A program made the translations under genes and the position numbers. From a virus: 34,833 nucleotides of DNA. How positions within the stretch are numbered: position 1 is the first letter of the stretch; each line of letters begins with the position of its first letter. The notes beneath the pieces are model-generated. The model was given only the letters and a program-made list of their open reading frames with translations. It was not told the origin of the DNA and searched no databases. The stretch is taken from positions 1 to 34,833 of the IMG/VR virus record IMGVR_UViG_3300020020_000111, one strand, 5' to 3'. Shown piece after piece: positions 5,125 to 24,319 of the stretch.

Positions 5125-6573
5125 ATGTCGACTTTGAAGGCGCACGCCCGGGCTGCGAAGCAGGGCATCTACAAAGGAGCCTACCTCAAGAAGGAGGCTC
5201 CGGCCGATACCAAGGCAGCGGAAGCCGCCCTGGTTACCCTCACCAAGGAGCTTGGCGACATCACCACGTTGCTGGAGAAGTCCAAGAAGGACGCCGAGAC
5301 CCAGTTCACTGAGCTGACCAACCATTACGGCGGCGTCAAGGCGGAGAACGAGGAACTGAAGAAGACGGTGCAGAAGCACGCCACTGAATACGCCGAGATG
5401 CTGGCGAAGCAGCAGCAGCTTCAGCAGATGGTCGACCTGATCAAGAAGGAAATGGACGTGCCCCTGCTCAAGGGCGGGTCCGAGCTGATCGAACATGACA
5501 AGAAGACAGCGGTGGAACTCCAGCGCCGCATCTTCCTCCACAAGGGCGGTAACAACTTCGAGTTCAAGTCCGACCTGGACAACCTGGTGGACTGCTCGGT
5601 CTACCGCGATGTCGTGCGCAAGCTGATGGTCGTCGGCATCGAGCAGAAGGCCAAGATCGTGCGTGGCTTCAATGAGGCCGAAAAGAAGATGTACGAGCTT
5701 GCCGGCCTTGACTCCGGTATGTTTTCGCCGGAAATGCTCGGCATCGAGATCGACTGTACCGTGGAATGCGCCGAGATGCTTGACCTGTATGGCCAGGCCA
5801 CGGTGGGCAAGTCAACGTTCATGTACCCGCAGGTCATGGACTATGGTGCCATCGGCAAGTACGACTGCGACGCCAAGTGCGATGCGGAATACGGGCCGGA
5901 AGGCAACGTGCAGTTCAAGAACGGCGCGGTGTCGGATTTCCGTGGTGTGTTCTGCCTTCACCGGCGCACGCTCCAGGAAGCCAACTATGACCTTCTGGAC
6001 TTCATGTACCGCGCGGCGGCGCGCTCGCACCGCATCAACCGCAACCGTGCGCTGATCAACGGCGATGGCGTCAACGAGCCGCAGGGCTGGGTGACGGCCA
6101 ACTGCTTCCCGAAGCTGAAGAGTTCGACCACGCTCTTCTCGCACCAGGACTGGCGGATGTTCTTTACTTCCGTCCCGGTGGAGTACGGCGCGGTGACGGC
6201 CGTGATGCACCAGAACACGTTCGCCTATCTGGCATCGCAGCTGGATTCGGTCGGCCGCTTCATCTTCGGCGACGGCCTGATGACCTACAATCCGAACGAT
6301 GTGCGCGAGTCCCTGCGCATTTCGAACTGTCTGCCCGATCCGACTGCCGGCCTGACCAAGGGTACGACAGCGGCCCCGTTCACCACCGGCGACTTCATTG
6401 CCGCCGCTGGCGCGTGGAAGCAGGCGTACTACGCCGTGTCGAAGCGCCCGCTCTGGATCGAGCAGTGGGAGGGCCAGAGCTCGGCCTGGTGCGTCAAGTA
6501 CCAGTTCGGTGCTGAGGACGGCGGCTTCGTTGGCTGCTGCCCGGCCGCCCACATCCTCAGCGTCGGCCCCTGA
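5125..6573 (+). CDS. major capsid protein (HK97 fold)
   Basis: 482 residues with a strong ribosome binding site (AGAAGGAAG) before the ATG. Residues ~30-115 are highly charged and helical (LTKELGDITTLLEKSKK, AEMLAKQQQLQQMVDLIKK), the coiled-coil delta/scaffold domain expected to be cleaved by the adjacent protease. The rest fits a Phage_capsid domain: FMYPQVMDYGAIG, an E-loop region, SHRINRNRALINGDGVNEPQGW (the typical 'inGdG...P.Gi' signature), AVMHQNTFAYLASQLD, and a P-domain ending in WCVKYQFGAEDGGFVG. Eleven Cys are unusual for this family; pairs occur at DCTVEC, DCDAKC and GCC. The downstream hairpin overlaps its stop. Confidence 0.93.
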   Translation: MSTLKAHARAAKQGIYKGAYLKKEAPADTKAAEAALVTLTKELGDITTLLEKSKKDAETQFTELTNHYGGVKAENEELKKTVQKHATEYAEMLAKQQQLQQMVDLIKKEMDVPLLKGGSELIEHDKKTAVELQRRIFLHKGGNNFEFKSDLDNLVDCSVYRDVVRKLMVVGIEQKAKIVRGFNEAEKKMYELAGLDSGMFSPEMLGIEIDCTVECAEMLDLYGQATVGKSTFMYPQVMDYGAIGKYDCDAKCDAEYGPEGNVQFKNGAVSDFRGVFCLHRRTLQEANYDLLDFMYRAAARSHRINRNRALINGDGVNEPQGWVTANCFPKLKSSTTLFSHQDWRMFFTSVPVEYGAVTAVMHQNTFAYLASQLDSVGRFIFGDGLMTYNPNDVRESLRISNCLPDPTAGLTKGTTAAPFTTGDFIAAAGAWKQAYYAVSKRPLWIEQWEGQSSAWCVKYQFGAEDGGFVGCCPAAHILSVGP

Positions 6574-6595
6574 TAGGAACCGGTACCCCCTATCA
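6571..6595 (+). other. hairpin at the capsid gene stop
   Basis: TGATAGG (6571-6577, including the capsid TGA stop) pairs with CCTATCA (6589-6595) around an 11-base loop. No T-run follows. It may protect the capsid mRNA 3' end or tune readthrough into the next gene, whose ribosome binding site (AGAGGAAAC) follows. The role is inferred. Confidence 0.4.
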
Positions 6596-6615
6596 CAACA
6601 AGAGGAAACTTCGTC

Positions 6616-7020
6616 ATGCTGGTTAACTACGGACTGCAGAATCAGGCACAGACGGCATTCGCTGCCGCTGCTGTTGCCTCCGCGCCGGTCGACATTCGCG
6701 GCTATGTTGGTTTCTCGTTCACCGCGAACGTCATCACTGCCATCGCTACAGACGCGGTGTTCAACGTCCAGGCGGCTCCGCCTTCGGATGCTGACCCGTG
6801 TCTGCCGGGGACGTTTGTTGACGTCCCTGAAGTTCCGATCTGCTCCGTTCCGGCCGTGCCGGCACCGCAGTCGACCTTCGCCATTCCGGCCGGTACCCCG
6901 GCTGGGGCGCGCTGTTCGATCTTCATGCCGTGTAAGCCGGATGCGTTCATTCAGGTGTTGCCGGTATCCGGTGACACGGCGAACGTGGAGATTGTCATCG
7001 GACTGCACGGCCCGAAGTAA
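6616..7020 (+). CDS. head-associated protein, unknown (possible decoration protein)
   Basis: 134 residues with a good ribosome binding site (AGAGGAAAC). It is beta-rich, with low charge and many Pro/Ala (PEVPICSVPAVPAPQSTF), a Gly/Val pattern (VDIRGYVGFSF) and four Cys. Its position directly after the major capsid gene is where head decoration or stabilisation proteins often lie, so that role is a reasonable guess from context, not from recognised motifs. It ends with EIVIGLHGPK. Confidence 0.75.
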   Translation: MLVNYGLQNQAQTAFAAAAVASAPVDIRGYVGFSFTANVITAIATDAVFNVQAAPPSDADPCLPGTFVDVPEVPICSVPAVPAPQSTFAIPAGTPAGARCSIFMPCKPDAFIQVLPVSGDTANVEIVIGLHGPK

Positions 7021-7023
7021 GCG

Positions 7024-7440
7024 ATGCGGGTACCGGCAGGACGACGCTTGAGAGTGGGGCCAGGAGACGCAGTTGTTCTCCTGGCCCGTCTACCCGACCC
7101 TTCAGTTCTGGGGCGTCTTTACGTGTTTGCGCGTGAAGGCGGCGAACCTGAGTATTCTCCATACATTCCAGGTCTGGCGGATATGGCAGAGTTTTCGGCA
7201 CCGACAATGAGTTCGCCGCTTTATATGCGGCTGACTGAAGCCCGCCGGGAAGGCAAGATATCGTTCAAGAGTGATATCGACGGCTGGGTGCGTATCTACC
7301 AGGAGGTTGACGGAGACCGGGACACCCGCGTAGCTGTACGCTGGAAGTACCAGGTCTCACCTGATCTACCCTGGACCCATCGCGTCTTACGCTATCTGCG
7401 TGGGTATTTCGACAAGGTTCAGGGGCTTGTATCTACGTGA
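7024..7440 (+). CDS. hypothetical head-region protein
   Basis: 138 residues starting at the ATG 3 bases after the previous stop; the ribosome binding site is weak. It contains VGPGDAVVLLARLPDP near the N-terminus and a beta-looking stretch SFKSDIDGWVRIYQEVDGDR, then a basic C-terminal helix (HRVLRYLRGYFDKVQG). I recognise no family. The GTGA at 7437-7440 overlaps the next gene, suggesting coupled translation within the head-accessory cluster. Confidence 0.65.
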   Translation: MRVPAGRRLRVGPGDAVVLLARLPDPSVLGRLYVFAREGGEPEYSPYIPGLADMAEFSAPTMSSPLYMRLTEARREGKISFKSDIDGWVRIYQEVDGDRDTRVAVRWKYQVSPDLPWTHRVLRYLRGYFDKVQGLVST

Positions 7441-7700
7441 CTGACGACGCCTATGTGGTGATGAACCTGGTATCGGGGAAGGGTCCCGATAGCCAGTGGT
7501 TTGATTTTCGTCCTGGGTTCTTCTCCCCGATTACGCGGGTTGAGTGGGAACTGGACACGATGCATATCGTACTGCCACAGGCGACGGCGGACACGCTGGT
7601 TAGGAACGGGTACGCCCGTTTGATGACTTCGGAAGAGAGGGACAAGTATGCCCTCTCCACGGAGAAAACTGAGCTCAAAGAAGGAGGTGATACGTCATGA
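7437..7700 (+). CDS. small head-region protein, paralogue of the 8568-8882 product
   Basis: 87 residues with a GTG start overlapping the preceding stop. The core SGKGPDSQWFDFRPG, VEWELDTMHIVLPQ and YARLMTSEERDKY lines up with SGKNDKVQWFDYCPG, AEWPLGTMMATVPQ and YARVMTLDEARNY in the protein at 8568-8882, so the two are paralogues. The function is unknown. The two copies flank the Ig-like gene. The last codons contain the Shine-Dalgarno of the next peptide gene (AAGGAGGTGAT), so its own translation would affect access to that site. Confidence 0.75.
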   Translation: MTDDAYVVMNLVSGKGPDSQWFDFRPGFFSPITRVEWELDTMHIVLPQATADTLVRNGYARLMTSEERDKYALSTEKTELKEGGDTS

Positions 7701-7789: not shown

Positions 7790-7805
7790 TAGCACGGTGA
7801 TCTTC

Positions 7806-7836: not shown

Positions 7837-7861
7837 TCCCTTTAACGGAGATGGGTTCACC

Positions 7862-8566
7862 ATGTTAGCGATCACCATTGACGACACGCAGCAGGATACC
7901 GCGTGTATCAAGTGTTGCTGTGAACCGCTCCATCTGAAGCCGGGCACAGTGACCAAGGTTCTGGTCAACTACGCGCCATGGGGCGTACCGATTGGCCAGC
8001 TTCACTGTGTGCCGCAGTTCCAGATCGAACAGATGGAAACCTGTCCGGTACTTGCCGGAACCAACATGCCGCCGCACATCATCGCGCAGGATGGCATGGC
8101 ACGCTTCGACACCGGTACCAATGTCACCCTTACGGCAGACCTTAAGACAAAGGTCGCTGACCCGGAGGGCCTAGCCCTTACCTTCAAGGTGTTGCCGCTG
8201 TACGGGCCGAAATTTGGGAAACTGAGCCTGCTTGCGGATGGCTTCTTTACCTACGTGCCGAATCCCCAGTTCATCGGTGAAGAGCGCTTCTACTGCTCCG
8301 CCTCGGATGGCGTCAACAAGTTCACCTTCGAAGTCATGATCGCCGTGGGCATCGACGCAGGGTTGATGAAACCGTCGCCCCACCTGGTCGTCGGCAACCC
8401 CACGGTCAATCCCAAATACTTCACGGTCAGCTTCCCGGTCGCGCTTTCGCCCGCTGCTGATCCGTGTGAGGTCTGGCGACTAACCGTGTTGCAGGCCGCA
8501 ATCGACTGCGCGTGCGAGTGTTACACTCGTACAGATTGTTTTGACGTCAAAGTGGCACAGTGCTGA
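7862..8566 (+). CDS. head-region protein with a cadherin/Ig-like (Big_9-type) domain
   Basis: 234 residues. Residues ~72-160 fit the bacterial Ig/cadherin-like repeat ('DPDGD.LT......P..G.l....dG.ftY.Pn..f.G.d.f.y..sDG'): VADPEGLALTFKVLPLYG, then GKLSLLADGFFTYVPNPQF, then GEERFYCSASDG. The N-terminal part has CIKCCCEPLHLKPGTV and the C-terminus CACEC plus DCF; 13 Cys in all. Ig-like domains are common on phage capsid and tail surfaces, where they bind host or glycan weakly, so a surface decoration or head-fibre role is plausible here between capsid and connector genes. The start at 7862 follows AACGGAGATGG. Its stop is 1 base before the next ATG. Confidence 0.75.
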   Translation: MLAITIDDTQQDTACIKCCCEPLHLKPGTVTKVLVNYAPWGVPIGQLHCVPQFQIEQMETCPVLAGTNMPPHIIAQDGMARFDTGTNVTLTADLKTKVADPEGLALTFKVLPLYGPKFGKLSLLADGFFTYVPNPQFIGEERFYCSASDGVNKFTFEVMIAVGIDAGLMKPSPHLVVGNPTVNPKYFTVSFPVALSPAADPCEVWRLTVLQAAIDCACECYTRTDCFDVKVAQC

Positions 8567-8567
8567 C

Positions 8568-8882
8568 ATGGAAGCTGTTCTTCTGACCGTTCCGCCGGGT
8601 ATTGCGCCGCGTACCAAGGCAGGTGACTGGGGTATCGTTCTCTTCCATAACTCTGGGAAGAACGATAAGGTCCAGTGGTTCGACTACTGCCCCGGCCCTC
8701 ATGTTCCAGCGGTGCGTGCGGAGTGGCCTCTCGGGACGATGATGGCTACGGTACCACAGCTGGTAGCAGAAGTGCTCCTGCGTGACGAGTATGCGCGCGT
8801 CATGACCTTAGACGAGGCGCGCAACTACAATAAGGCGGTGGAACGCCTTTCGGAGAAAACCGTCAAGCTGGATGTTGCATGA
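8568..8882 (+). CDS. small head-region protein, paralogue of the 7437-7700 product
   Basis: 104 residues from the ATG at 8568; a TTG at 8541 in frame is possible but would overlap the Ig-like gene by 26 bases. The shared core with the 87-residue protein upstream is WFDYCPG, AEWPLGTM and YARVMTLDEARNY. The N-terminus (VLLTVPPGIAPRTKAGDWGIVLF) is longer than in the paralogue. The function is unknown. The two copies bracket the Ig-like gene, suggesting duplication within a head-surface or connector cassette. ATGA overlaps the next gene at 8879. Confidence 0.75.
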   Translation: MEAVLLTVPPGIAPRTKAGDWGIVLFHNSGKNDKVQWFDYCPGPHVPAVRAEWPLGTMMATVPQLVAEVLLRDEYARVMTLDEARNYNKAVERLSEKTVKLDVA

Positions 8883-9559
8883 TCACGCCTGATGTCCGCC
8901 CGCAGCCTGTTCCGGATGAGCGGCCCCCGAATGGGGAGTTTGAGAAGTTCGACTGGACTGCGCGCCTGTCAATCGAGATGGTACGCCAGCACACGAAGAC
9001 CGATGACACCCCCGGGGTGAGCGATGAGATGCTGAAGCTGTACCGTCAGGCGTCAATAGAAGCCGCTGAGATGTACACCGGGATGCTTCTGAGCGGTAAG
9101 AAGACCGTGACAGAAACGATTCGGATACCTGAAAACTGGTCGCGGCAGTTTCTTCGTCACCAGTTACGCTACCCGGTCGCCCAGGATGGATTCGCCTACC
9201 TGTATGGCCGGTCGCTGACCTTTAAGATTCCGGTCGCGGCGGGGCAGCAGTCGGTTCGTATTCCGCGTCTTTCACATATCCCCGATTTCACGAATTGCTG
9301 CGACCCCCGTACCACCAGCGATATGATGTTGTTGTACTGGGCTGGTTTCTCTTGCGCGAATGATGTCCCCGCCGGGATCGTGCTGGGGTGCCTTCAGTAT
9401 ATCGCCTGGGTGGTTGAACACCCGGGTGATGAGCTGTTGGCGATGCGCAATAAGATGGACGCCAGTAATGCGAGCGGCGGCGTTCACGGTATGTCCAATA
9501 TCGCCTTGATTTCAGGAGCGCTTGAGACGTGGCGCCAGTATGACCCGGAGGCAATCTGA
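8879..9559 (+). CDS. head-tail connector protein (gp6-like adaptor)
   Basis: 226 residues. Helical segments MLKLYRQASIEAAEMYTGM and GIVLGCLQYIAWVVEHPGDEL fit the gp6-like connector pattern ('l.r.aieaAe.ytGr' with a later helix). These adaptors form a ring beneath the portal. The insert between (LRYPVAQDGFAYLYGRSLTF, SVRIPRLSHIP) is beta-rich and replaces the usual short hairpin, making the protein longer than a minimal gp6. Order after head proteins and before the stopper is consistent. The overlap with the previous stop is 4 bases. Confidence 0.75.
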   Translation: MITPDVRPQPVPDERPPNGEFEKFDWTARLSIEMVRQHTKTDDTPGVSDEMLKLYRQASIEAAEMYTGMLLSGKKTVTETIRIPENWSRQFLRHQLRYPVAQDGFAYLYGRSLTFKIPVAAGQQSVRIPRLSHIPDFTNCCDPRTTSDMMLLYWAGFSCANDVPAGIVLGCLQYIAWVVEHPGDELLAMRNKMDASNASGGVHGMSNIALISGALETWRQYDPEAI

Positions 9560-9560
9560 G

Positions 9561-9842: not shown

Positions 9843-9862
9843 CGCAAACTTAGGAGGAAACG

Positions 9863-10877: not shown

Positions 10878-10949
10878 GTGCCCCGGTTCATGTACTACCT
10901 CCTAGCCCTGGCAATAATCTGCGTGGTTATCGCGATTGTGTGGAACTGA
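10878..10949 (+). CDS. 23-residue single-membrane-helix peptide
   Basis: GTG at 10878 begins a 23-residue product, MPRFMYYLLALA followed by IICVVIAIVWN, almost entirely one hydrophobic helix. Its TGA overlaps the ATG of the zinc-knuckle gene (10947-10951), and it fills the space between two genes exactly, which argues for coding. No clear ribosome binding site is seen; coupling with the preceding gene is likely. It is too short to assign to a family; it may be a membrane microprotein. Confidence 0.45.
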   Translation: MPRFMYYLLALAIICVVIAIVWN

Positions 10950-11159: not shown

Positions 11160-11717
11160 GTGGACGCAATCACACCCAAAGTTGCGGTTCGGTTCCTACC
11201 AGCGCTGGCTGAGCAGATTGCGCTGTGGTTCCCAGAGGTAGGGGGGCGGTCACTAGCCGTCTCCGAAGTTACAATCACGAAGGAGAACGTCCCAACCCTA
11301 CCACTGGTAATGACGGCCTTCACGAACTCTGTTGCTGAGCCGCCGTCGCGTAGTCAGACTACAATGTTCGACATCATTGATACTTTTGTCGTTGAGTTCT
11401 GGTTGGAACCGGCACGCTACAAGAAGGCGAATGGGGCCGAAACTCCGTTCTGGAGCTACTACCCCTACGAAGAGATCAGGGACACGCTGCTGACGAATAT
11501 CTCTCAGTGGCAGACCCCAAACGGCGAGATCATTAGCTACCGCCGCCTTCAGCTTGGCGCGGACCCGCTCGCGGTTACTCTGACGTTTACCTTCGTGGCG
11601 GTGTTCCGCTGGTGTCCGAGCAAGATCACGAACATTGGTCAGCCGTTCACCTTAACGACCACCCTGAAGCCGGATACAAGCTGTTGTATCCCTGAGGAGC
11701 CGGACCCGTGCCAGTGA
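11160..11717 (+). CDS. tail terminator-like protein
   Basis: 185 residues with a GTG start. N-terminal helix VRFLPALAEQIALWFPEV, then a beta-rich body with IDTFVVEFWLEPARYKK and RRLQLGADPLAVTLTFTF, and a Cys-containing tail (SCCIPEEPDPC). The position, between the gp10-like gene and the DUF2635 gene, is that of the Mu gp37-type tail terminator, and the alpha/beta layout fits. The call rests mainly on context. The ribosome binding site is weak. Confidence 0.55.
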   Translation: MDAITPKVAVRFLPALAEQIALWFPEVGGRSLAVSEVTITKENVPTLPLVMTAFTNSVAEPPSRSQTTMFDIIDTFVVEFWLEPARYKKANGAETPFWSYYPYEEIRDTLLTNISQWQTPNGEIISYRRLQLGADPLAVTLTFTFVAVFRWCPSKITNIGQPFTLTTTLKPDTSCCIPEEPDPCQ

Positions 11718-12089: not shown

Positions 12090-13631
12090 ATGTCAATTGA
12101 CAGCCTTCGGTCCGGCGCAATCCGGATTTGTTTCTCCGACGCACTCAACGCCTATCCATCCAAGTGTCGCATCCTGATCGAAGGTCAGATGCTCGACACG
12201 GGTGTTGCGGTTAGCGGCGAGCTGATCAAGATTCCATCTCTGCGCGACGTTGATCTTCTGTTCGGCGTGGGCAGCGTGATCGCGGAAGGTCTCAAGACGG
12301 CCTTCCTGTGCTGCCCGCAGCAGGCGATGGAATTTTTCGCGCTGCCGTGGAAGGACGCTGATGTCGGCGCCCTCACCAAGGCGGTCTACGACATTCGCTT
12401 CGAACAGAATGCGACCAGTGATGGCCGCATCGACCTTTACATCGGCGACGGCCGCTGGAATACCAGCACCCGCGTCAAGGAGGGAATGAAAGACGATGAC
12501 ATCGCCATCGCGGTGGAGCAGTCCCTTCTGATGGAGGATGGTCTTCCGTTTACCGTGTCGCGCGGCGACGCGGCAGGCGGTACGGGCAACGTGGTGCGTC
12601 TCATCGCGAAGAATGCCGGCACCGTGGGCAACTGCGTGGCGATCATCCCCAACTGGCACGAGAGGCGCAATTACTTCCCGGCCAACGTCGAGGTTTATAT
12701 CTCCCAGGATACAGTCGGCGCGGGCGCGATGACCGTGGCGCAGGCACCCGACTATCAGTCCATTCTGGGCGAATGCTGCTACTGTTGCATCGGCATGCTC
12801 TATGACGATGAGGTTTGGCAGGATGCGATGATTGAATACATCGCGTCGGCCTGGTCGTGCGACAAGCCCCAGTGCTTCGGTCACGGCTATACCTACAATC
12901 AGGGTACGTTCGGCGAAATCCTGGCGGCCGATACGAACTCTGCAGAGGTTTGCCGCATCGCGCATTGCTGCACCGATCCGAGCATTGGCTGGCTGAAGGT
13001 CGCGGCGTTTGCGGCGCACTCTTGCTGTGCCACGGTCGATCATCCGGAGCTCAGCGTGCAGGGGCCGAACGACGGCATCCTGGCCTGCCTGCGCATTCCG
13101 GAATCCTGCACGCAGTGCTTCACCTTCGAAGAGCAGCAGCTGCTTCAGGCCACTGGCTTTGTGGTTACCGTTCCGCTCCAGGGTGGCACGGGTAGCCTTA
13201 CCCAGCCGATGATCGTTAACGATAGTACAAACAACCGTTACGACGAGAATGGCCGCCTCAACGCCACGTGGTGGAACACCAACTCGCGGCGGCTGGCGGC
13301 GGCGACGGCGGATTCCATGGCCATCGCGCTTGGCCCGGTGCTGGGCCTTGGCCTGTTCACGAAGAACACGACTGTCCCGGCTGGCGTGCGCGGTACCAAC
13401 CCGCGCATGATCCTGGGCCAGGTGCGCGCCTGGGCGAAGGGTCAGATTGGGGTCCTGTTCAGCGAGTTCGATGACATCGACAAGGACATCGTGTTGCGAA
13501 CAGACTTCGAGGTTGCGCCGAAGTGCCAGGGCATTCCTGGCAAGCTGTGGCTGGACTTCACCTACCGGCCACCGGTGCGCATCTCGACGATCACGATCAA
13601 CGCTCAGCCGGCAATGCTGAGTAACTGCTAG
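12090..13631 (+). CDS. contractile tail sheath protein (Mu gpL-like)
   Basis: 513 residues from ATG 12090, with AAAAGGAGCG upstream; a longer frame from 11883 overlaps the DUF2635 gene and is rejected. The layout fits Mu-type sheath proteins: an N-terminal handshake region (FSDALNAYPSKCRILIEGQML), a GIGS-like stretch (DLLFGVGSVIAEGLKTAF), inserted beta domains, and a C-terminal core (RGTNPRMILGQVRAWAKGQ, PGKLWLDFTYRPPVRISTITI). It surrounds the tube and contracts on infection. There are 21 Cys, many paired (ECCYCC, SCDKPQC, HCC, SCC, SCTQC), far more than usual for this family, suggesting disulfides or metal sites. Confidence 0.88.
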   Translation: MSIDSLRSGAIRICFSDALNAYPSKCRILIEGQMLDTGVAVSGELIKIPSLRDVDLLFGVGSVIAEGLKTAFLCCPQQAMEFFALPWKDADVGALTKAVYDIRFEQNATSDGRIDLYIGDGRWNTSTRVKEGMKDDDIAIAVEQSLLMEDGLPFTVSRGDAAGGTGNVVRLIAKNAGTVGNCVAIIPNWHERRNYFPANVEVYISQDTVGAGAMTVAQAPDYQSILGECCYCCIGMLYDDEVWQDAMIEYIASAWSCDKPQCFGHGYTYNQGTFGEILAADTNSAEVCRIAHCCTDPSIGWLKVAAFAAHSCCATVDHPELSVQGPNDGILACLRIPESCTQCFTFEEQQLLQATGFVVTVPLQGGTGSLTQPMIVNDSTNNRYDENGRLNATWWNTNSRRLAAATADSMAIALGPVLGLGLFTKNTTVPAGVRGTNPRMILGQVRAWAKGQIGVLFSEFDDIDKDIVLRTDFEVAPKCQGIPGKLWLDFTYRPPVRISTITINAQPAMLSNC

Positions 13632-13927: not shown

Positions 13928-14374
13928 ATGACCTGTGAAAACCAGGTAGGCGTGAAGAACATCCTCATGACCTTCCTCGACTGCGACACCGGCGCGATCT
14001 ACGGCCCGATCAGTCACAATCTCAGCAGTGAGGACCTGCCCACGTGGCGGCTCTGTCCATACAACAACGATCCGCTGCCGCACGGCTACGTCAAACGGCA
14101 GCCGTCGAACCCAGAGGTCGAGATCAAGGTGATTCGCGACCTGCGAATTCCCTTGTCCATGTACCAGGGGTGTTCAGACGTTACACTCCAGGTGGAGTAT
14201 TACAACGGGCTGGTTTACTCTGCCGCCAAGGGGACCGGGACAGGCGACACCAAGTCGGATACCCACGAAGCAGAAATGACCATCGTGTTCAAGGAGATCG
14301 ATGAGCTTCTGCCGGCGGGTACCCTGGAGACGACAACCAACACGGTCGAACCGACATTCGCGGTGGCCGCGTAG
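13928..14374 (+). CDS. tail tube protein (Mu gpM-like)
   Basis: 148 residues with ribosome binding site AAAGGAACAG before the ATG, following the sheath gene as in Mu. Beta-rich, with EVEIKVIRDLRIPLSMYQG and VTLQVEYYNGLVYSAAKGTG, ending in DTHEAEMTIVFKEIDELLP, which resembles the 'a.v.lrf.gd.iee' closing strand of tube proteins. Stacked hexamers form the inner tube through which DNA passes. Four Cys (residues 3, 19, 43, 78 approximately) are more than expected. The long structured leader precedes this gene only. Confidence 0.8.
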   Translation: MTCENQVGVKNILMTFLDCDTGAIYGPISHNLSSEDLPTWRLCPYNNDPLPHGYVKRQPSNPEVEIKVIRDLRIPLSMYQGCSDVTLQVEYYNGLVYSAAKGTGTGDTKSDTHEAEMTIVFKEIDELLPAGTLETTTNTVEPTFAVAA

Positions 14375-15260: not shown

Positions 15261-15262
15261 CG

Positions 15263-18200
15263 ATGCCCAGCTTCACCGAAACCGCAACCCTTATCGTCAA
15301 AGACAAATCGACCGCGCAGATCAATAAGATCAACGCGGCGCTGAAGAAGCTATTTGCTACGGCCCGGTCGCTTAAGGGCATCAAGATTGATATCAAGACG
15401 CCCAATTTGAGGAAAGCTATTGCGGACGTCAATAAACTTCAAAGTGCTTTGAGGGGGGTAAAGAGCAAAACAGTTAATGTCAAAGTTACGGGTGTATCTG
15501 CCGCGCGTCGGCAAGTGCAGGCACTTGCCAATGATATAAAGAAATTGAGTGGTGCTAACGTTCGGATGAGAGCGGCTACGGCCAGGGCAGGACGGGCCGA
15601 ATCTCGACAGCGGCTCTACGGTGCAGCTTTGGCGTCCTCTAATCTGAAGAAAGCTCAGCTTGCACGGGTTAAGTTAATCCAGAAGGCTGAAAGGGAGAAC
15701 GCTACATTTACCCAGAGGGCGCAAGCTGCCGCGCAGCGTCAGCAGGCGCGTCAGCAGGCGACGGCTCAGCGTCAGCAGGCGCGTCAGGCGGCTATAATTC
15801 AGAGCCAGGCCGCGCGTCAGGCCGCCCTTCCTGCCCCACCCCGGGGTGTGCGTGTCCCTAATGTCCGCGCACCAGCAGCACAGCCGTGGGGTTATCCTGC
15901 CCCGCGTCCCACGCGTCCCCCCGCTCAGCCCTCAGCCCCAGCACAATCTTCAAGTTTCGCTCGTGGTATTGCGAGTGACATCAGTCAACATATTCGCAGC
16001 GCCATTATCAGCGGCACGGCCCAGGCGGTTAAGGAAGGCACCACGCAGGCCGATATTGGCAAGACTGGTCTTGACCTGAAAGAGTTGTCCAAGGACCGGC
16101 GCAAGCTGGTCGAATCGCAGATCACCGAACTCGGCGCAGAGCAGGCCGCGCGCCCTGGCGGCTCCATGTGGGGACGCGGGCAGATTACCCAGCAGGTCTC
16201 GGAAATGCTGGGCGTGGTTAAGGCGGGCGCGGCCACCGATGAAGCTGACTTTAAGACCCGCGCGGCCCAGGCCAAGTTTATGGCCGACCGTAACCTTGAA
16301 CTTGCTGGCTCTATGGTTAAAATGGGCGTCGCGCAGAGCCAGGCCAGCGAAGAGTCAATCAAATACGGCAAGGCGCTTGAAATTCAGGGCAAGATTTACA
16401 ACAAGACTACCGGCGTGCTTGACCCTGCTGCTGCCGCGAAGCAGTACGATTTAATCCATTCGCTCATCCCGGCCATCGGTAAGGAGATGACCGGGTCTAA
16501 TTATTTACAGCTGCAGAAGTATCTGCGTGCGGGTCGTTTTGGGTTATCCGACGAAGCGACGGCGCTGGCCATGTCTTCGTTTGAGGAAATGGGTACGAGT
16601 GCCGCTGTCGGCATTAACCAGATGATAAAGACCGTAGGTGGTACGGCAAAAAAGACAGCGCTGGCGGAACAGGCGCGGCTAGGTTTGATTGGTACTAAAG
16701 ATGTGGTTACAGGTAAGGTGGGTAAGCAAAAGGTCAAAACTATCGCTGGGGACCTTTCAGAAGCCAATGCCAAGCTGCTACGTGAAAATCCCCAGCAGTG
16801 GGTCGATACCAAGCTCATTCCGGCATTGAAGTCTGATCTGATTAAGAAGGGCGCCAAGCCAGAAGAGGCGGCGGCTAAGGTAACTGACCCAGCCTATGTC
16901 GCGACCCAGATTTCAAAGCTGTTCTCCGACCGCACCGCCGCCGACATGGCAACGTCGATGGTGCTGCGTAGTCAGGAGAACCAACAATTCCTAAAGGACT
17001 GGCGTTCGCGTACCGCGACGATGGAAAGTCAACGCGCGGCTACGTCTGACTCTGTCCTGGGTGTGACCGCCGGATTACAGAACCAGCTACAGGGTGTTTT
17101 TGGGCAAGCCATTGTTGCGGCTGCCCCGATACTGACGCCTGCGATGGGTTACCTGAGTGAAGGTCTACGCAAAGTAGCTGAGACTACAGCTGCCGCTGCG
17201 CAAGGCGACCCTGCAGCAGCAGCTAAGCTGGCGGCAGGAACGCTCACCGCCGCTGCATTGGCGCCAATGATAAAAGCAGCGGCTAGTCCAGCTATGGCGT
17301 TAATCCAGTCTGCAGCTGGACCGCTGGGCACAGCAGCAGCTTTATCCGGCGCTGCTGATCCGGCAACGCGGCCGTTATCACTTGCGGCTCTCGCCTTGCA
17401 AGGGGCAGCTGCTGACTTATCCGGTGCTGCGAAAGTTCAGCTTGCCGCAGCTGGTAAGGGTATCTTAACGCCTGACGGTCTGCCTGATGCGGGCGGAGGC
17501 AAGAAGGGGGGCTGGCGTTCGAGGGTCGGGCGTATGGCGAAGGGCGCCCTATTGGCGGGCGCCGCCGTTGGTGGAACGATTATGGTCGTTGACGCGATCA
17601 ATACGTCTGAAGAGGATCAGAGCCCAGGGAAGCTGCGACAGGCGCGCCAGGACCTTGTCAATACGAAGCAGGAAGTATCGCTTATGCAAGAGGCGATGAC
17701 TGCTGCCAAGGATCAGTCGGCCAAGGACGCGCTTTATTCTAAGCTATCAGAGTTGAACGCTAAGGAAGAAGCGTTGACCGCGACGATTGCGCGTCGCGAG
17801 GCTATTGCACGCGGGGAGAAGCCGCCGGTAGTGCAAGTGGAGCCTACCTCTCAGTTCCGTCGCCCTGTGAAGTGGATACCCGGTCTTCCAGATGAGTTGC
17901 GGTCACTGCGTGAGATCAAGGTGCCGCAGGGCGAGCAGCCAGCATTGAATTGGCCGGATGAGCCGATGCCAGCGCCATCCTGGCTGCCAGACATCAAGCA
18001 GCAGCCGGCATGGCTGCCAGAACTCAAAGCCCCGTTGTCCAGAATGGATGATGTATTTAAGCAGTTGCAAGACCAGACGCCACAGTCTCGACTGGATGAT
18101 GCTTTTCGTCAAGTAGGGGCGATGAAGCCCAGTATGTTGCCGCCCGACGTATCTGCAACAGCTGCAGCCCCTACCCCCGTTGTTGCCGCTCCCTCGGATA

Positions 18201-18463
18201 CGATGATGACGGCGGCGGCGAAGATCGAAACGTCAGCCACTACATTCAGCTCAGTCTTCGATAGCGGCCCGCAGAAACTTGCAGAGGCCGGGACCACGGC
18301 TGGAACTAATGCGGCGACTAGTTTTGGCGGCGGGGCTGCAGGTTGGGGTGCGACGATGGCGGCTGCCTTCAGGGCAGGGGTCGCCGGAATACAGATTGGT
18401 ATTGGTGCTATCCCCGGCGCAGCTGGGGCTAAGCCGACCAACACCGGGACGCAGAGTGAATAA
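15263..18463 (+). CDS. tail tape measure protein
   Basis: 1066 residues, the longest product in the window, in the tape-measure position. The first ~120 residues are basic and helical (QINKINAALKKLFATARSLK), followed by Gln/Ala/Arg repeats (QRQQARQQATAQRQQARQ, residues ~158-176), a Pro-rich linker, long helical stretches, and Ala-rich hydrophobic segments around residues 650-720 and 750-780 (ALLAGAAVGGTIMVVDAI) that could enter the host membrane. A late Trp/Pro repeat (SWLPDIKQQPAWLPELK) and DDVFKQLQ/DDAFRQVG pair follow. No Cys is visible, in contrast with the outer proteins. By the usual 1.5 angstrom per residue rule the tail would be about 160 nm. Parts of the first 600 bases are AT-richer than neighbours. 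Confidence 0.92.
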   Translation: MPSFTETATLIVKDKSTAQINKINAALKKLFATARSLKGIKIDIKTPNLRKAIADVNKLQSALRGVKSKTVNVKVTGVSAARRQVQALANDIKKLSGANVRMRAATARAGRAESRQRLYGAALASSNLKKAQLARVKLIQKAERENATFTQRAQAAAQRQQARQQATAQRQQARQAAIIQSQAARQAALPAPPRGVRVPNVRAPAAQPWGYPAPRPTRPPAQPSAPAQSSSFARGIASDISQHIRSAIISGTAQAVKEGTTQADIGKTGLDLKELSKDRRKLVESQITELGAEQAARPGGSMWGRGQITQQVSEMLGVVKAGAATDEADFKTRAAQAKFMADRNLELAGSMVKMGVAQSQASEESIKYGKALEIQGKIYNKTTGVLDPAAAAKQYDLIHSLIPAIGKEMTGSNYLQLQKYLRAGRFGLSDEATALAMSSFEEMGTSAAVGINQMIKTVGGTAKKTALAEQARLGLIGTKDVVTGKVGKQKVKTIAGDLSEANAKLLRENPQQWVDTKLIPALKSDLIKKGAKPEEAAAKVTDPAYVATQISKLFSDRTAADMATSMVLRSQENQQFLKDWRSRTATMESQRAATSDSVLGVTAGLQNQLQGVFGQAIVAAAPILTPAMGYLSEGLRKVAETTAAAAQGDPAAAAKLAAGTLTAAALAPMIKAAASPAMALIQSAAGPLGTAAALSGAADPATRPLSLAALALQGAAADLSGAAKVQLAAAGKGILTPDGLPDAGGGKKGGWRSRVGRMAKGALLAGAAVGGTIMVVDAINTSEEDQSPGKLRQARQDLVNTKQEVSLMQEAMTAAKDQSAKDALYSKLSELNAKEEALTATIARREAIARGEKPPVVQVEPTSQFRRPVKWIPGLPDELRSLREIKVPQGEQPALNWPDEPMPAPSWLPDIKQQPAWLPELKAPLSRMDDVFKQLQDQTPQSRLDDAFRQVGAMKPSMLPPDVSATAAAPTPVVAAPSDTMMTAAAKIETSATTFSSVFDSGPQKLAEAGTTAGTNAATSFGGGAAGWGATMAAAFRAGVAGIQIGIGAIPGAAGAKPTNTGTQSE
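15737..15790 (+). repeat. short tandem repeats in the tape measure gene
   Basis: CGTCAGCAGGCG occurs at 15737-15748, 15749-15760 and 15770-15781, then a shortened CGTCAGGCG at 15782-15790. They code the RQQA-type repeats. Such repeats can change tape length by slippage; this is inference. Confidence 0.7.
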
Positions 18464-19656
18464 TGTCTAGATCAGTCTGCGCAATTGACAAGGATGTTGT
18501 CCCCGCATCGTTCAAGGGGGTTATGTTCTATTGCACTGAGGCCGATGTCGAAGGCGGGCGTCGCGGCGCTGAGGGTGAGTTTCCATTTGGGGAGGATACG
18601 GCGTATGCTGACCTTGGCCGGAAAATTCGTGTTTTTCACCTCACGGCCTACTTCAGAGAAGACGATCATGTCTGGGACAGCCAGGCCCTCTTTGAAGCCT
18701 GCCAGTCTCCTGGCCCGGGGCTTCTTGTTCACCCGACGCGCGGCACACACATGGCTGCTTGTCGTTCGGTCAAGGTTAAGGACAGCCTGGAGAGTGAAGC
18801 GGGCCAAACGTCTGTTGAGCTGGAGTTCGTTGAAGCAAACATCGGATTTGGCGGTCTCGCAGGCTCGATCTTCGGAATCATCTCTACCGGCCTCTTCGCG
18901 GCGTCGCAGGCGTCCTTTCTGAGGGACTATACTCCGCCTCTGGTACCGCAGCCGTGGGTTAAGGATGTTATCGACACGGCACAGACGCTAGTCAAGGCGA
19001 CAGCGACGGTCGCGACCCATGTGGTTGCTGCTGATGCTCCGGCGAGCGAATGGCGTAAGATTAGCCGGATGAATGAAGTAGCGCAGGATGACGGCCTTGC
19101 CGCTTCGGCCATCAACGTGGATACGGCGATGGTGGATGGGTTCCGCTTGATCTCTTATCATGATCAGGACCCGAACTCCAAGTTTACCCGTTTCCGCAAG
19201 TTGTCGAACGTCGCAGCATCCTCATCGAAGCTACCAGAGGGGCCTGCGGCGGAAAGCGAGGAAGCCGCCCTCAGCCGTCACCGCATCTTAGCCGCCATCG
19301 GTATGGCAGAGGCTGCGATGGGTCGAAGGTATGTGACGATTGATGAGGCGCTGACCGCTATGGACATAGTGCTGGCGGTGCTGGACGACGAAGCCCGAGC
19401 CGCCTACGCGGAATGTGACAATGCGTTGTTCCTGGAAATCAAGAAGTACGCGGTCCAGTTTGGCAAGATGATGAATGATCTTGCCTACCGCCTGCCTGGG
19501 GTGGTGCGGGTGAATTTCTCTGGCGGGGTGCATCCTCTGGTTGCGTCCTACACGATCTACCGGGACGCCAAGCGGCACCGTGAGCTGGAAGAACGCAACA
19601 TCGTTGACGCGAATGGCCGGTTTGGACCTATCGTTACCGGCGTCTCGCCTGTATGA
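18463..19656 (+). CDS. Mu gpN-like baseplate/tail protein (DNA circularization N-terminal domain)
   Basis: 397 residues; ATG overlaps the tape measure TAA (TAATG). The first ~130 residues fit the DNA_circ_N pattern: ASFKGVMFYCTEADVEGGRR, then FPFGEDTAYADLGRKIRVF, then LFEACQSPGPGLLVHPTRG and SVELEFVEA. In Mu-like phages this is the tail/baseplate protein N, thought to sit at the tube-baseplate junction; the DNA-circularization name is historical. The middle is Ala/Val-rich, and the C-terminus carries HRILAAIGMAEAAMGRRY and HPLVASYTIY, as in family members. ATGA overlap with the next gene. Confidence 0.85.
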   Translation: MSRSVCAIDKDVVPASFKGVMFYCTEADVEGGRRGAEGEFPFGEDTAYADLGRKIRVFHLTAYFREDDHVWDSQALFEACQSPGPGLLVHPTRGTHMAACRSVKVKDSLESEAGQTSVELEFVEANIGFGGLAGSIFGIISTGLFAASQASFLRDYTPPLVPQPWVKDVIDTAQTLVKATATVATHVVAADAPASEWRKISRMNEVAQDDGLAASAINVDTAMVDGFRLISYHDQDPNSKFTRFRKLSNVAASSSKLPEGPAAESEEAALSRHRILAAIGMAEAAMGRRYVTIDEALTAMDIVLAVLDDEARAAYAECDNALFLEIKKYAVQFGKMMNDLAYRLPGVVRVNFSGGVHPLVASYTIYRDAKRHRELEERNIVDANGRFGPIVTGVSPV

Positions 19657-21011
19657 AGCCGGTTGTCATAACTATTGGTGGTTCTGAACTGACCACCTGG
19701 ACTGAGATGACCCTGGAGAGGAAGAAGGATGATCTCACGGGCAGTCTCAGCGTTACGATCTTTGCTGGAGCGGTGCCGTCGATACCGATGGTGCAGGCGG
19801 CGAAGGCAGGGGCCGAAATACTCTGTTACATTGCTGGCCAGCTGGCCTTTACTGGAACCGTGGATGCTCGAAAAGGAACTGGGTCTAAGAAGGGCAAAGA
19901 AGGCACGGCGAAGGAAAGCAGCGAATCTAAAGGCGAGGCTAAAGCCAGTGTCAGTATCGGCCCGAATGAGTACACAATCAAGCTTTCGGCGCGTGGCAAG
20001 ACGAAGCGGCTGATTGATTCGTCGCACCAGCATCCGACCACGAACATGATGCAGCCGACGACCAAGGAAGTGGTTGACAAGCTGGTTGAGCCGTGGAAAG
20101 TTCAGGTTGAGTGGAAGGCTGAGACAATCAAGCTCGACAAGCAGCGCTTCCGCGATGGCGCGCGTGTAGTGGACGAGCTTCATCGGGTTGGTCTGGAGAA
20201 TTGCTACTTCATGTATGAGACGCGCGATGGTAAGCTGCGCGTGACGGATGGAGTGGGTAGTGAATCAGGTTCAGGTGACGCGCTAATCCTTGGACAGAAT
20301 ATCCTGACCTTCTCGGCGGAACAGTCGGAAGATGAGGCGAAGTCCAAGATCAAGGTTAAGGGTCAGCGCACAAAGAAGGACAAGTGGGGTAAGAAAGCCC
20401 TGGAGAAGACTTTCAAGACTCAGAAGAACAGTTCGGTCAAGAGCAAGAACGAGCTCACTGTGCAGATGTACGGCGACGCGACCGACAAGGCCCTAGAGCG
20501 TCGCGGCCGGTTTGAGATGAATAAGCGTAACAGCAAGAGCAAGAAGATCACGATTGAAGTGTTCCACGTGCAGACACCATCAGGCCAGCCGTGGGATATT
20601 GGAAATACCCACTACGTCGAAGTCCCCCCTGAGGGGATTTTTGACATGTTCGAGTGCACAGAGTTAACTTATCACGTCAATGCTGAGAAAGAGTTGAAGA
20701 CAACCCTGACCTTATCGCCGCCGCCCTCTGGGGGCGCGGGCGGTGAAGGAGGGGGCGGAGGCGGCTTCGGGCTATCCAGCCTGACCAGTATGATGGGGAT
20801 AGGGTCCGCACGACGGAGCCAGGCCGGAGTCACAATGTCTGCGGAGGCTTATCCTGATCCCTGGGGGCCGCCGATGCTATCTGAGCTTCCTGTAATAAGT
20901 CTGGTCGAAGAAGCCGCCAAGGCGGCGACGGAGCCGAAGAAGGATGAAGAAGAGGAAGAGCAGCCGCCCCCATTAACGCTTCCCTATTGGTTTGGAGATA
21001 AAGATGAGTAA
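19653..21011 (+). CDS. baseplate hub protein (Mu gpP-like, gp27-like)
   Basis: 452 residues. Start KPVVITIGGSELTTWTEMTL, FAGAVPSIP, then NEYTIKLSARGKTKRLIDSS and RFRDGARVVDELHRVGLENC follow the Mu P/late-control D hub architecture (two beta-barrel domains). An inserted charged stretch (KGTGSKKGKEGTAKESSESK) lies near residues 70-90. After residue ~350 there is an unusual extension: Gly-rich (GGAGGEGGGGGGFG), Pro/Leu and an acidic run (DEEEEEQPPP). The hub trimer joins tube to spike. The next gene's start overlaps by 8 bases. Confidence 0.82.
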   Translation: MKPVVITIGGSELTTWTEMTLERKKDDLTGSLSVTIFAGAVPSIPMVQAAKAGAEILCYIAGQLAFTGTVDARKGTGSKKGKEGTAKESSESKGEAKASVSIGPNEYTIKLSARGKTKRLIDSSHQHPTTNMMQPTTKEVVDKLVEPWKVQVEWKAETIKLDKQRFRDGARVVDELHRVGLENCYFMYETRDGKLRVTDGVGSESGSGDALILGQNILTFSAEQSEDEAKSKIKVKGQRTKKDKWGKKALEKTFKTQKNSSVKSKNELTVQMYGDATDKALERRGRFEMNKRNSKSKKITIEVFHVQTPSGQPWDIGNTHYVEVPPEGIFDMFECTELTYHVNAEKELKTTLTLSPPPSGGAGGEGGGGGGFGLSSLTSMMGIGSARRSQAGVTMSAEAYPDPWGPPMLSELPVISLVEEAAKAATEPKKDEEEEEQPPPLTLPYWFGDKDE

Positions 21012-21615
21012 CAGCTACCTGGGTTACCGTCCACGGTCCAGTGATATTCAGGATGGCACAGAGCGCCATGTTTACAGCGAGCTGAAGTACGAAGAGGCGG
21101 GCGCGATCATCAAGGTGAAGGGCACGGATACCGAGGATGAGGAAGCGGCTGTGCTCAACATCGGCGGCGTGGGCTTCAAGCTGAAGAAGGACACCGATAG
21201 CGAGGTGTTCCTGCTGGCGTCGTCATCCGATACGCAGCTGAAGCAGGCTGTATTGACCATCCCGAAGGACAAGCAGCGGCGCTGGCCGGAGGGCGAGGGT
21301 GGTATCCAGCATCCGACTGATCCGGAAGTCTCCATGCATTTTTCCGACAAGCTCACGCACGTCACCAAGAACAAGTTCGCTGTGGGCGAGAAGGGTGAGT
21401 TTGAGGTCAAGGAGGATGCTGTCTACATCCGTGCCAAGAAGGTGATCATTGAAGGTGAGCTGGTCGTTAATAAGCAGGTCAAGACGCCCAGCGTGGTTAG
21501 CGGCAAGGAAGACCCGCCCGGCTTCGAAGGCAACAAGCAGGAGGAAAAGAAATCATCTGGCGGCGGCGGTGGCGGTACGCCAGCTGCTCAGACTGAATTC
21601 GTCGGTATTATCTGA
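21004..21615 (+). CDS. baseplate spike / Mu gp45-like protein
   Basis: 203 residues from ATG 21004, with GGAG 6 bases upstream; a TTG at 20992 is less likely. The central region (AVLTIPKDKQRRWPEGEGG, IQHPTDPEVSMHFSDKL, YIRAKKVIIEGELVVNKQV) matches the Phage_Mu_Gp45 pattern, in which a barrel is followed by a beta-helical spike. The classical 'G..s.PlpGaevvv' OB-fold part is much reduced here. The C-terminus has a poly-Gly linker (KKSSGGGGGGTPAAQ) and ends TEFVGII. It would puncture the outer membrane. No Cys. Confidence 0.75.
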   Translation: MSNSYLGYRPRSSDIQDGTERHVYSELKYEEAGAIIKVKGTDTEDEEAAVLNIGGVGFKLKKDTDSEVFLLASSSDTQLKQAVLTIPKDKQRRWPEGEGGIQHPTDPEVSMHFSDKLTHVTKNKFAVGEKGEFEVKEDAVYIRAKKVIIEGELVVNKQVKTPSVVSGKEDPPGFEGNKQEEKKSSGGGGGGTPAAQTEFVGII

Positions 21616-22199
21616 TGGCCGAAGTTGATGACTGCCTTGCCCAGAACGTCGGGCGACGCCGCATCTTCTGGTCGACCCGGCCGCATGCTTGCGGCGGCTA
21701 CGTCATGTGCGGCGTTGAATGTCAGATTCCCGGGCTGGAGTATGAGGACAAGGAAGGCCCGTACCCCGATAATAGTCTGCCAGGGCATATTAGTGGTGGC
21801 TATCGCACGATCAAGAATGAGGGCTGGCTGCACGGCCTGATTCTCAATATTCTGAATACCCGGGCGCGTACGGATAAGCGCTGCCCAACTCCGGCAGCGG
21901 TGTATGGTCACTGGTCTGAGTCGTACCGGGAGGATGGGCTGTACATCGGTTCGACACTATGGAACGCGGCTGAGAAGTCCTACATCAGGACGGCGGATGC
22001 CGTGAAGGCGATTGGCGCCGCCGTTCGGGCGGACATGGGTAAACTGATAGCTCTCGGTATAGCCGAATCTGTCGAGGTTGAGGCGACCTATCGCGGATCG
22101 AACAGTGTTGAGGTCACTGTTACTGTGACCACTGTAACGGGACGCAGTACGATCAACCTCTCAGGCAGCTTCGTCACCGAGACCTGGGTCTGGCATTAA
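21615..22199 (+). CDS. baseplate protein, Mu gp46-like (gp25/W-like)
   Basis: 194 residues; the ATG shares a base with the preceding TGA. The core GWLHGLILNILNTRARTDKR, then YGHWSESYREDGLYIGSTLW and AADAVKAIGAAVRADM-like helix (TADAVKAIGAAVRADMGKL) fits Phage_Mu_Gp46: 'l..al.isLftdrra...d......rGww.d.y...iGSrLW'. These small wedge proteins initiate baseplate and sheath assembly. The N-terminal ~60 residues carry an extra Cys-containing stretch (HACGGYVMCGVEC) not expected for the family. Confidence 0.8.
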   Translation: MAEVDDCLAQNVGRRRIFWSTRPHACGGYVMCGVECQIPGLEYEDKEGPYPDNSLPGHISGGYRTIKNEGWLHGLILNILNTRARTDKRCPTPAAVYGHWSESYREDGLYIGSTLWNAAEKSYIRTADAVKAIGAAVRADMGKLIALGIAESVEVEATYRGSNSVEVTVTVTTVTGRSTINLSGSFVTETWVWH

Positions 22200-22205
22200 G
22201 CACCC

Positions 22206-23414
22206 ATGACCTGTACCATCCCGCGACCGGACCCGCAGGCGCTCTTCGATCATTTGCGGAATATGTTCTCGTCCACGGTGCTGGGTGGTGGCAAAGTCAT
22301 CCCAGAATCGAACGAGTGGTACGTTGTTACGAATGATTACGCGGCAGCTGAGCAGTTCTACGCTATCGCGGATCAGATGTGGCGTGAGACCAACCCGGAA
22401 ACGGCGTGCTGTGAGAACTTGTACAAGATGGCGGCGCAACATGGCGTCTACCCGCGCCCGCCGTCGCATGCTGAAGGTTATGCTAAGTTAACCGGGACCC
22501 CCGGAACACCGGTTCCGCCGACGCTCGAAATTCAGACCAGTATTGGCACCTTCGTCTCTGTTGGTACTGTCCCGCTTACCCTTTCGTCAGATGGCATCGC
22601 GATCATTCGTATTCGCTCCCTGGTTCCGGGCGGCCAGATGAACGCAAGCGGTAGCGTGACGACAGGGGTACTGACTACACCTGCCCCTGGGATCAACGAT
22701 GAAGTTGCGATCTGTGGCGGTCAGTTCTGCGGCGGCGCTGGAGAGGAATCCTGCGAGGAATTCAGAAAGCGCTACATTGAGCGCCTAGCTTATCAGCCCC
22801 GTGCGACCCAGGCCTGGATCCAGGCGAAGTTTCTAGAGTTTCCGTGTGCCACCCGCGTCTGTGTACGAGAGGGTAGCTGCTGTAAGTGTAGCGCCGAATG
22901 CGGCGACTGTGGGTGTAAGAATTGCGGCAATGGGATGGATTTCTACGTCCTATTTGACGGGGTGTTCCCCTGTGGCATCCCGCCCCTGAACGTGATCCAG
23001 GATATCCAGGAATGGATGTTTGGAAAGCATCAGGGGTACGGAGAGGGTGAAGTTGAGATTGGTGTCTGTGGGCGAGTGTTCTGCCCGATGCCCATCATGG
23101 TCAACGTGGTTATCGATATCGAAGGGTGTCCCACTACGTCACAGAAGCAGATGATTGAAAATTACATACAGGAGCTATTCTTGCGCATTTGCCCGTCGAT
23201 GCCGCTTCGAGTCAAGCAGCTAGAGTTGATTATTGCTTCGGTGATCGGGCCGGAGATCAACGTGCAGGTTCGTTTTGAGCCGGTCGATGGGACCTGGAAC
23301 CGGAACGAAGTCTGGGTGAATGGCTGCGGCGACCTGGAGCCTGAGTGTGATTATCTGCCGTGCCTGAATGACGTGATCTTCCTCGGTCCAGCATCGCTGA
23401 ACCCGCCATGTTAG
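22206..23414 (+). CDS. baseplate J-like protein (Mu gp47-like) with Cys cluster
   Basis: 402 residues. The baseplate J pattern is visible: an N-terminal domain with FYAIADQMWRETNPETACCE, a central beta barrel (GTPVPPTLEIQTSIGTFVSV, then TTPAPGINDEV), EFRKRYIERLAYQPRATQAW (the 'esdeelR.R.l.r......g...ay' signature), and the C-terminal VNVVIDIEGCPTTSQKQMIE region. It forms the wedge arms. Odd feature: near residues 225-241 lies a seven-Cys run (SCCKCSAECGDCGCKNC) where the family has a short variable loop, and there are about 24 Cys in all. Overlap of 7 bases with the next gene. Confidence 0.85.
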   Translation: MTCTIPRPDPQALFDHLRNMFSSTVLGGGKVIPESNEWYVVTNDYAAAEQFYAIADQMWRETNPETACCENLYKMAAQHGVYPRPPSHAEGYAKLTGTPGTPVPPTLEIQTSIGTFVSVGTVPLTLSSDGIAIIRIRSLVPGGQMNASGSVTTGVLTTPAPGINDEVAICGGQFCGGAGEESCEEFRKRYIERLAYQPRATQAWIQAKFLEFPCATRVCVREGSCCKCSAECGDCGCKNCGNGMDFYVLFDGVFPCGIPPLNVIQDIQEWMFGKHQGYGEGEVEIGVCGRVFCPMPIMVNVVIDIEGCPTTSQKQMIENYIQELFLRICPSMPLRVKQLELIIASVIGPEINVQVRFEPVDGTWNRNEVWVNGCGDLEPECDYLPCLNDVIFLGPASLNPPC

Positions 23415-24319
23415 CACCTTCACCGCATGTTCAGATACCGCTGGAGCGGTATACGGCTGACGGGTGCCAACTGGTGGCAACGCCGGAGGATACAGGATGT
23501 TGCCCGCCCCCGCTCTGCGGCAACGATCTTTGCTGCACCTTCGTTGCCTTCATGAATTTGCTGCCCTCTGGTCCGCTCTGGGACTACTGGAAGGCGGCGG
23601 CGATCAGCTACTTCGAGAGTCACGAGGACCCGGCGCGCTGTCCGCTGCTGAACGATCCGAGCTGCCCGTCTCTGGTGTTGCATTCGATCTACACGGTGCT
23701 AAAACTACGCCACGTGGTACATGATGCGCTCTGGCCCGCGTTTCGCGAGAGCAACCCCTATACGGCAGTGACAACGCTGGACGCCTACCTGGCGCGGATG
23801 CACTGGGAAGATTGCTACAAGCAGCATTGTCGCAGCGTGATCTTAGGGGAGATCACCCCATATGAGATTATGGGACCGTGTGGGCCGATCTACTGTGACT
23901 TTGAGTTTCCCCCGGAGCTTGACTGCGCGCTTAAGCGTGGAATTGCGGTTGCTCTGGCTAGGGCTAACATGGGTGTGATCAAGAACCTTTGCGGACTGAA
24001 CTGGATAATTGAGCCGCTGGGGGCTATTCTGAAGCCGGTGTTCCCGCAGCCGCCGCCGGATAATAACCCGTGCTATGAGTTGTGCGTCGACAATCCCCAG
24101 TTCGAGATATGTCAGACGCGCGATTGGCTGGAGGGGTGCGGCTCTGGCGATATATGTGAGACGAATATGCCGCCACCTAAAGTTCCCGCGTACTGGAGTA
24201 CGTGTGACAAGCCTGCTGGGTTGCCCGCTACGATCTGGCCGGGCGTCCTAGCCGCCGAGTGCATCGTGAGATCGATGCTGCCGCAAAACTGCCCGAACAA
24301 CATAACTCGGTGCTGTTGA
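23408..24319 (+). CDS. Mu gp48-like baseplate wedge protein, extremely Cys-rich
   Basis: 303 residues starting 7 bases before the gpJ-like stop. Family features: CCTFVAFMNLLPSGPLWDYW (the 'll..LLP.G.aw' lead of gp48/DUF2313), a helix with LDAYLARMHWEDC, and GVIKNLCGLNWIIEPLG. In Mu, gp48 links wedge and fibres. It has 24 Cys by eye (about 8 %), evenly spread, including CC pairs at TGCC, LCC and the C-terminal RCC. I know no relative with so many. The middle region is longer than in Mu. It is the last baseplate gene before the fibre block. Confidence 0.7.
   Translation: MLAPSPHVQIPLERYTADGCQLVATPEDTGCCPPPLCGNDLCCTFVAFMNLLPSGPLWDYWKAAAISYFESHEDPARCPLLNDPSCPSLVLHSIYTVLKLRHVVHDALWPAFRESNPYTAVTTLDAYLARMHWEDCYKQHCRSVILGEITPYEIMGPCGPIYCDFEFPPELDCALKRGIAVALARANMGVIKNLCGLNWIIEPLGAILKPVFPQPPPDNNPCYELCVDNPQFEICQTRDWLEGCGSGDICETNMPPPKVPAYWSTCDKPAGLPATIWPGVLAAECIVRSMLPQNCPNNITRCC

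Follow-up and report, generated by a model that had tools for sequence, protein, structure and literature searches.

Particles of the Agrobacterium phages Milano and 7-7-1 have been solved by cryo-EM and carry disulfides within and between proteins of the capsid, neck, collar, sheath, tube, and baseplate (PMC10811340, PMC10491603, PMC12796354). Both the stability of the Milano particle and its contraction depend on reductant (PMC10811340), the tail contracting in guanidine plus DTT but not in denaturant alone (PMC10811340, PMC10491603, PMC12796354). Within the Milano sheath, the C47:C182 bond is broken on contraction, and C14:C244 and C216:C327 remain (PMC10811340, PMC10491603, PMC12796354). 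Because these networks have been solved, the idea of a disulfide-linked particle is already established for the relatives of the phage described here. That virus is known only as a 34.8-kb contig (IMGVR_UViG_3300020020_000111), which we analyzed at its full length of 34,833 nucleotides (here referred to as the window) and which represents a fragment. Very probably, the virion genes in the window form an operon of a contractile phage that is a distant relative of Milano and 7-7-1 and whose capsid, collar, neck, sheath, tube, and baseplate wedges appear to be made for covalent disulfide cross-linking within and between chains. The window phage is soil-type and a divergent variant of an already known kind of system.

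In tblastn searches, the main relatives among annotated phages were the Agrobacterium phages Milano, OLIVR4, and 7-7-1 and two Synechococcus phages. Relatives were also found in Bradyrhizobium lablabi, where the location on a 303-kb contig indicates a probable prophage, in Bradyrhizobium sp. Leo170, and in a Bartonella bin. A synteny comparison showed that gene order runs parallel to that of Milano from the terminase to the short tail fibre, with homologous head, neck, tail, and baseplate genes in the order typical of Milano-type phages (Table 1); even the tiny capsid linker peptide, overlooked in the sequence-only reading, is in place. Solved structures exist for homologues of the capsid, collar, sheath, J, and BW3 proteins, and sequence matches to the solved Milano and 7-7-1 chains were strong for all five (capsid, E = 9e-157; sheath, 1e-125; J, 2e-108; BW3, 2e-52; collar, 1e-30). 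When the window sheath was modeled with AlphaFold (mean pLDDT of 83), the Milano sheath was its best structural match (Z of 51.2; rmsd of 2.1 over 476 residues).

Table 1. Virion genes and selected residues of the window (residue numbers are those of the window protein unless marked Milano)
Feature	Positions	Strand	Cysteines	Basis
Major capsid protein (MCP), homologue of Milano gp9	5125..6573	+	11; all 10 Milano Cys kept	sequence match, alignment
Minor capsid/decoration protein, homologue of Milano gp10	6616..7020	+	bonded Cys kept 4/4	alignment
Small capsid linking peptide, homologue of Milano gp128/LP; stop-to-stop frame, 32 aa	7691..7786	+	bonded Cys kept 4/4	alignment
Collar protein (Ig-like protein), homologue of Milano gp13	7862..8566	+	13; Milano Cys kept 7/7	sequence match, alignment
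Neck 1 protein, homologue of Milano gp14	8879..9559	+	C141 and C159 kept; C120 position deleted	alignment
Tail terminator, homologue of Milano gp18	11160..11717	+	C152 (Milano C156) kept	alignment
Tail sheath, homologue of Milano gp20	12090..13631	+	21	sequence match, model
Sheath K47 (Milano C47, half of contraction lock)	12228..12230	+		alignment
Sheath C182 (extension domain; Milano H171), half of predicted new disulfide	12633..12635	+		co-variation
Sheath R192 (Milano C182, other half of contraction lock)	12663..12665	+		alignment
Sheath C294 (body domain; Milano T281), other half of predicted new disulfide	12969..12971	+		co-variation
Inner tail tube, homologue of Milano gp21	13928..14374	+	C3, C19, C43, and C82 all kept	alignment
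Tape measure, homologue of Milano gp24	15263..18463	+	absent in both phages	translation, homology
Baseplate centre piece (BCP, DNA-circularisation-like), homologue of Milano gp25	18463..19656	+	C318 kept	alignment
Central spike, homologue of Milano gp27	20992..21615	+	none	translation, homology
Baseplate wedge 1 (BW1, GP46 family), homologue of Milano gp28	21615..22199	+	4 bonded Cys kept; C29 and C41 absent	alignment
Baseplate wedge 2 (BW2, gpJ-like, Baseplate_J family), homologue of Milano gp29	22206..23414	+	24	sequence match, alignment
Baseplate wedge 3 (BW3, gp48-like), homologue of Milano gp30	23408..24319	+	24; C173 at 23924-23926, C244 at 24137-24139	sequence match, co-variation
Short tail fibre, homologue of Milano gp31	24321..25010	+	C52 (Milano C38, baseplate anchor) kept	alignment

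Several further features accompany these genes. Two related small proteins, encoded at 7437-7700 and 8541-8882, flank the collar gene, and since both match Milano gp12, a duplication is suggested. An open stretch at 15100-15261 leads from the chaperone stop into the tape measure gene; as Milano has a frameshifted chaperone product at the equivalent place, a similar frameshift is likely in the window. Seven Cys-poor fibre-like genes form a run at 24958-34541; several of them have a common N-terminal module marked by a WNGYGW-type motif, and three carry a Peptidase_S74 chaperone domain. A second short-tail-fibre-like N-terminal domain, at 34548-34833, is cut by the window end and has cysteines where Milano gp31 has C29, C38, and C67.

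The sequence-only reading had drawn attention to cysteine, and translation reproduced its counts exactly, both for the rich proteins (11 of 482 residues in the capsid, 13 of 234 in the Ig-like protein, 21 of 513 in the sheath, 24 of 402 in the gpJ-like protein, and 24 of 303 in the gp48-like protein) and for those with none (0 of 1,066 in the tape measure, 0 of 213 in the large chaperone, and 0 of 207 in the spike, or 203 residues from a later ATG). Its premise that phage virion proteins are usually Cys-poor also holds in the ordinary contractile phages Mu, P2, and phiNP. Across the MCP, sheath, tube, and three baseplate wedge proteins, cysteine makes up 89 of 2,042 residues (4.36%) in the window and 3.41% in Milano, compared to 0.81% in Mu, 0.99% in P2, and 0.71% in phiNP. 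These six outer head and tail proteins of the window are thus at about five times the level of the ordinary phages, far above chance, and structural proteins of the window are enriched in cysteine relative to its other proteins. Counting cysteines in homologues, as had been proposed, showed the pattern of Cys-rich and Cys-free proteins to be family-wide, with median contents of 7.2% in BW3, 5.5% in BW2, 5.2% in the collar, 3.6% in the sheath, and 2.3% in the MCP, and 0.0% in the tape measure, chaperone, and spike (mostly 45 to 83 homologues per family; 26 for TerL and 29 for STF). The low content of the tape measure is itself ordinary (0 of 690 residues in Mu and 1 of 815 in P2).

The description of these data as a Cys-rich exterior around a Cys-free interior was roughly right but drew the line in the wrong place. 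The inner tail tube has cysteines at four positions that hardly vary (3, 19, 43, and 82), so the interior is not Cys-free. The highly exposed tail fibres at 24958-34541 contain only 0 to 0.8% cysteine, and the large chaperone acts in assembly and lies outside the particle. With a Cys-bearing tube and Cys-poor exposed fibres, exterior versus interior is therefore not the dividing axis. The cross-linked parts are those held in fixed lattice contacts, namely the capsid, collar, sheath, tube, and baseplate wedges, and outside this set are the sliding tape measure, the assembly chaperone, the central spike, and the fibres.

To compare the window with the solved particles, we mapped 43 bonds published in the Milano and 7-7-1 papers onto alignments. 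For 37 of the 43, the window has both cysteines; the other six are not conserved as such, although in a probable 38th case BCP C5 appears to be replaced by the neighboring C6, which the alignment puts together with it. The published bonding cysteines are complete in the tube, capsid, decoration, linker, and collar proteins. The window keeps 78 of the 91 cysteines that Milano has in the outer proteins (86%), compared to 39% for all residues, while in the other proteins the figures are 5 of 17 (29%) and 32%, indicating that cysteine conservation is specific to the cross-linked parts.

Disulfides predict that cysteines should be gained and lost in pairs. We built a tree from the Cys-free columns of twelve virion proteins in 91 contigs, placed the changes of each Cys column on its branches, and compared these placements for pairs of columns within a protein with at least three changes each. 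Perfect co-variation, with all changes on the same branches, was seen for 8 of 344 Cys pairs and for 11 of 208,553 pairs of the other nineteen residues summed, a contrast between residues that is large even though parsimony placement and tree error make single counts uncertain. A near-perfect partner was found for one third of such Cys columns and for at most 2% of those of any other residue. The best pair, BW3 C173-C244, has both cysteines in 23 sequences, neither in 33, and a single one in none, with 11 shared changes. The published inter-protein bonds BCP C318-BW2 C3 and BW1 C22-BW3 C75 were each lost as a pair twice and never singly. Further co-varying sheath pairs are C75/C313, C233/C312, C293/C343, and C74/C232, and several more lie in BW2, BW3, and the collar. 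This paired behavior fits disulfides, and co-changing Cys columns offer a way to name disulfide partners from sequence alone. Among the 131 cysteines of the 13 outer proteins, 60 are at published bonds, 32 more belong to co-varying sets, and 39, mostly nearly invariant, fall in neither class; some of the latter may already have known partners among Milano intra-chain bonds beyond the 43 mapped here.

Co-variation also bears on the capsid, for which the Milano and 7-7-1 papers report different pairings (302-455 and 186-456 in Milano; 302-460 and 186-459 in 7-7-1). Positions 460 and 459 of 7-7-1 align with Milano 456 and 455, respectively. Three sequences have lost both C302 and C456 but retain 186 and 455, which favors the 7-7-1 pairing over the Milano table and would join C327 to C472 in the window (sites C327, C471, and C472).

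In the sheath, the window keeps the cysteines of both Milano bonds that survive contraction (here C14:C257 and C229:C340). In contrast, both cysteines of the C47:C182 lock are found only in Milano, 7-7-1, and OLIVR4, and the window and 75 other homologues have neither. With K47 and R192 at these positions, the window is therefore not placed in the Agrobacterium-phage subtype. What is new is that the bond blocking contraction in Milano is not general among its relatives. A second pair, C182/C294, is always present or absent as a unit (both in 16 sequences, either one alone in none, and neither in 63), occurring in the window and 15 relatives that include both Bradyrhizobium sequences. On the sheath tree, the two columns change together about five times, and well-supported branches force at least three of these changes; on the concatenated tree the count is four, and neither column ever changes alone. 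By homology, C182/C294 joins the extension domain to the body domain, the same combination as in the Milano lock, so it may replace that lock, and the two pairs (in 16 and 3 sequences) never co-occur. On the other hand, the bond could be intra-chain, and about 60 homologues have neither pair, so that the family can do without a lock. We regard an inter-subunit C182/C294 bond replacing the Milano lock as a tentative refinement with rather less than an even chance of being correct; the pair is a candidate replacement lock or may be merely an internal staple. Somewhat more doubtful is a general scheme in which the sheath redox lock is a swappable, lineage-specific part, with C47:C182 in Agrobacterium phages, C182:C294 in the clade of the window, and none in most relatives, so that many would fire through baseplate gating alone. 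How such phages are triggered to fire is now a testable question.

Selection for disulfides or metal ligation had been offered jointly as the cause of the cysteine excess. The first half is supported by the solved homologous networks, the selective retention of cysteines, and the co-variation of Cys pairs. That the virion cysteines serve mainly as metal ligands, in zinc or iron-sulfur sites, could draw on some CxxC and clustered motifs (e.g., BW2 C225-C240) and on a set of three BW2 cysteines (170, 228, and 237) gained and lost nearly together, but most co-varying sets are pairs, many match known bonds, and the same positions are joined by disulfides in the Milano and 7-7-1 structures, making general metal ligation very improbable. 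We give virtually no credence to a functionless excess that simply follows from base composition or host codon usage, since neighboring genes in the same operon lack cysteine, the excess is family-wide and limited to lattice proteins, Cys positions are conserved much more strongly than the remainder of each protein, and ordinary contractile phages contain only 0.7 to 1.0% cysteine. The suggested hot, oxidizing, or metal-rich habitat found no support: the named hosts of the relatives are Agrobacterium, Bradyrhizobium, and Synechococcus (plus the Bartonella bin), none suggesting a hot or metal-rich setting. A 72-residue protein encoded at 10940-11158 contains two tandem CX2CX4HX4C zinc-knuckle motifs (CTYCGSLHHTYRLC and CGYCGKRDHEIEAC), which, unlike the virion cysteines, probably form a metal site; it had no Pfam match, and the first set of related loci examined contained no homologue of it.

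Under the favored disulfide reading, assembly in the host cytoplasm would probably involve reduced subunits, whose placed Cys pairs would probably oxidize after release. By analogy with the DTT that Milano needed in vitro, the baseplate would require at least partial reduction before firing. Thioredoxin and glutaredoxin families had no match in 21 related phage records, in which positive controls did match; the window, as a 34.8-kb fragment, could lack redox-enzyme genes merely through incompleteness.

Compared to known systems, the window shares gene order and homologous virion proteins with Milano (MK637516; structures 8FOP, 8FOY, 8FQC, 8FWG, and 8FXR), 7-7-1, and OLIVR4 (genus Schmittlotzvirus); further features in common are a Cys-free tape measure, a collar built from an Ig-like protein, and a capsid linker peptide. 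It differs in the identity of most virion proteins, which at about 30 to 50% makes membership in Schmittlotzvirus unlikely, in lacking the sheath lock and the BW1 cysteines C29 and C41, in additional Cys pairs in the sheath, collar, BW2, and BW3, and in the run of fibre genes that follows the short tail fibre in place of lysis genes. A tail-spike homologue was not found within the window. The Synechococcus phages Ssp-JY38 and Yong-L2-223 (56% identity in the sheath and 47% in J) have the same Cys-rich families and share the sheath pairs C74/C232, C233/C312, and C293/C343 but lack C182/C294, and no structure was found for them. Escherichia phage Mu resembles the window in sheath fold (Z of 39.6 to the window model) and tail gene order; its corresponding proteins, however, contain the low cysteine level given above, and its sheath is only about 19% identical and therefore has no comparable Cys set. 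These comparisons extend disulfide-laced particles, a curiosity of Agrobacterium phages, to a wide group that includes Bradyrhizobium prophages and cyanophages.
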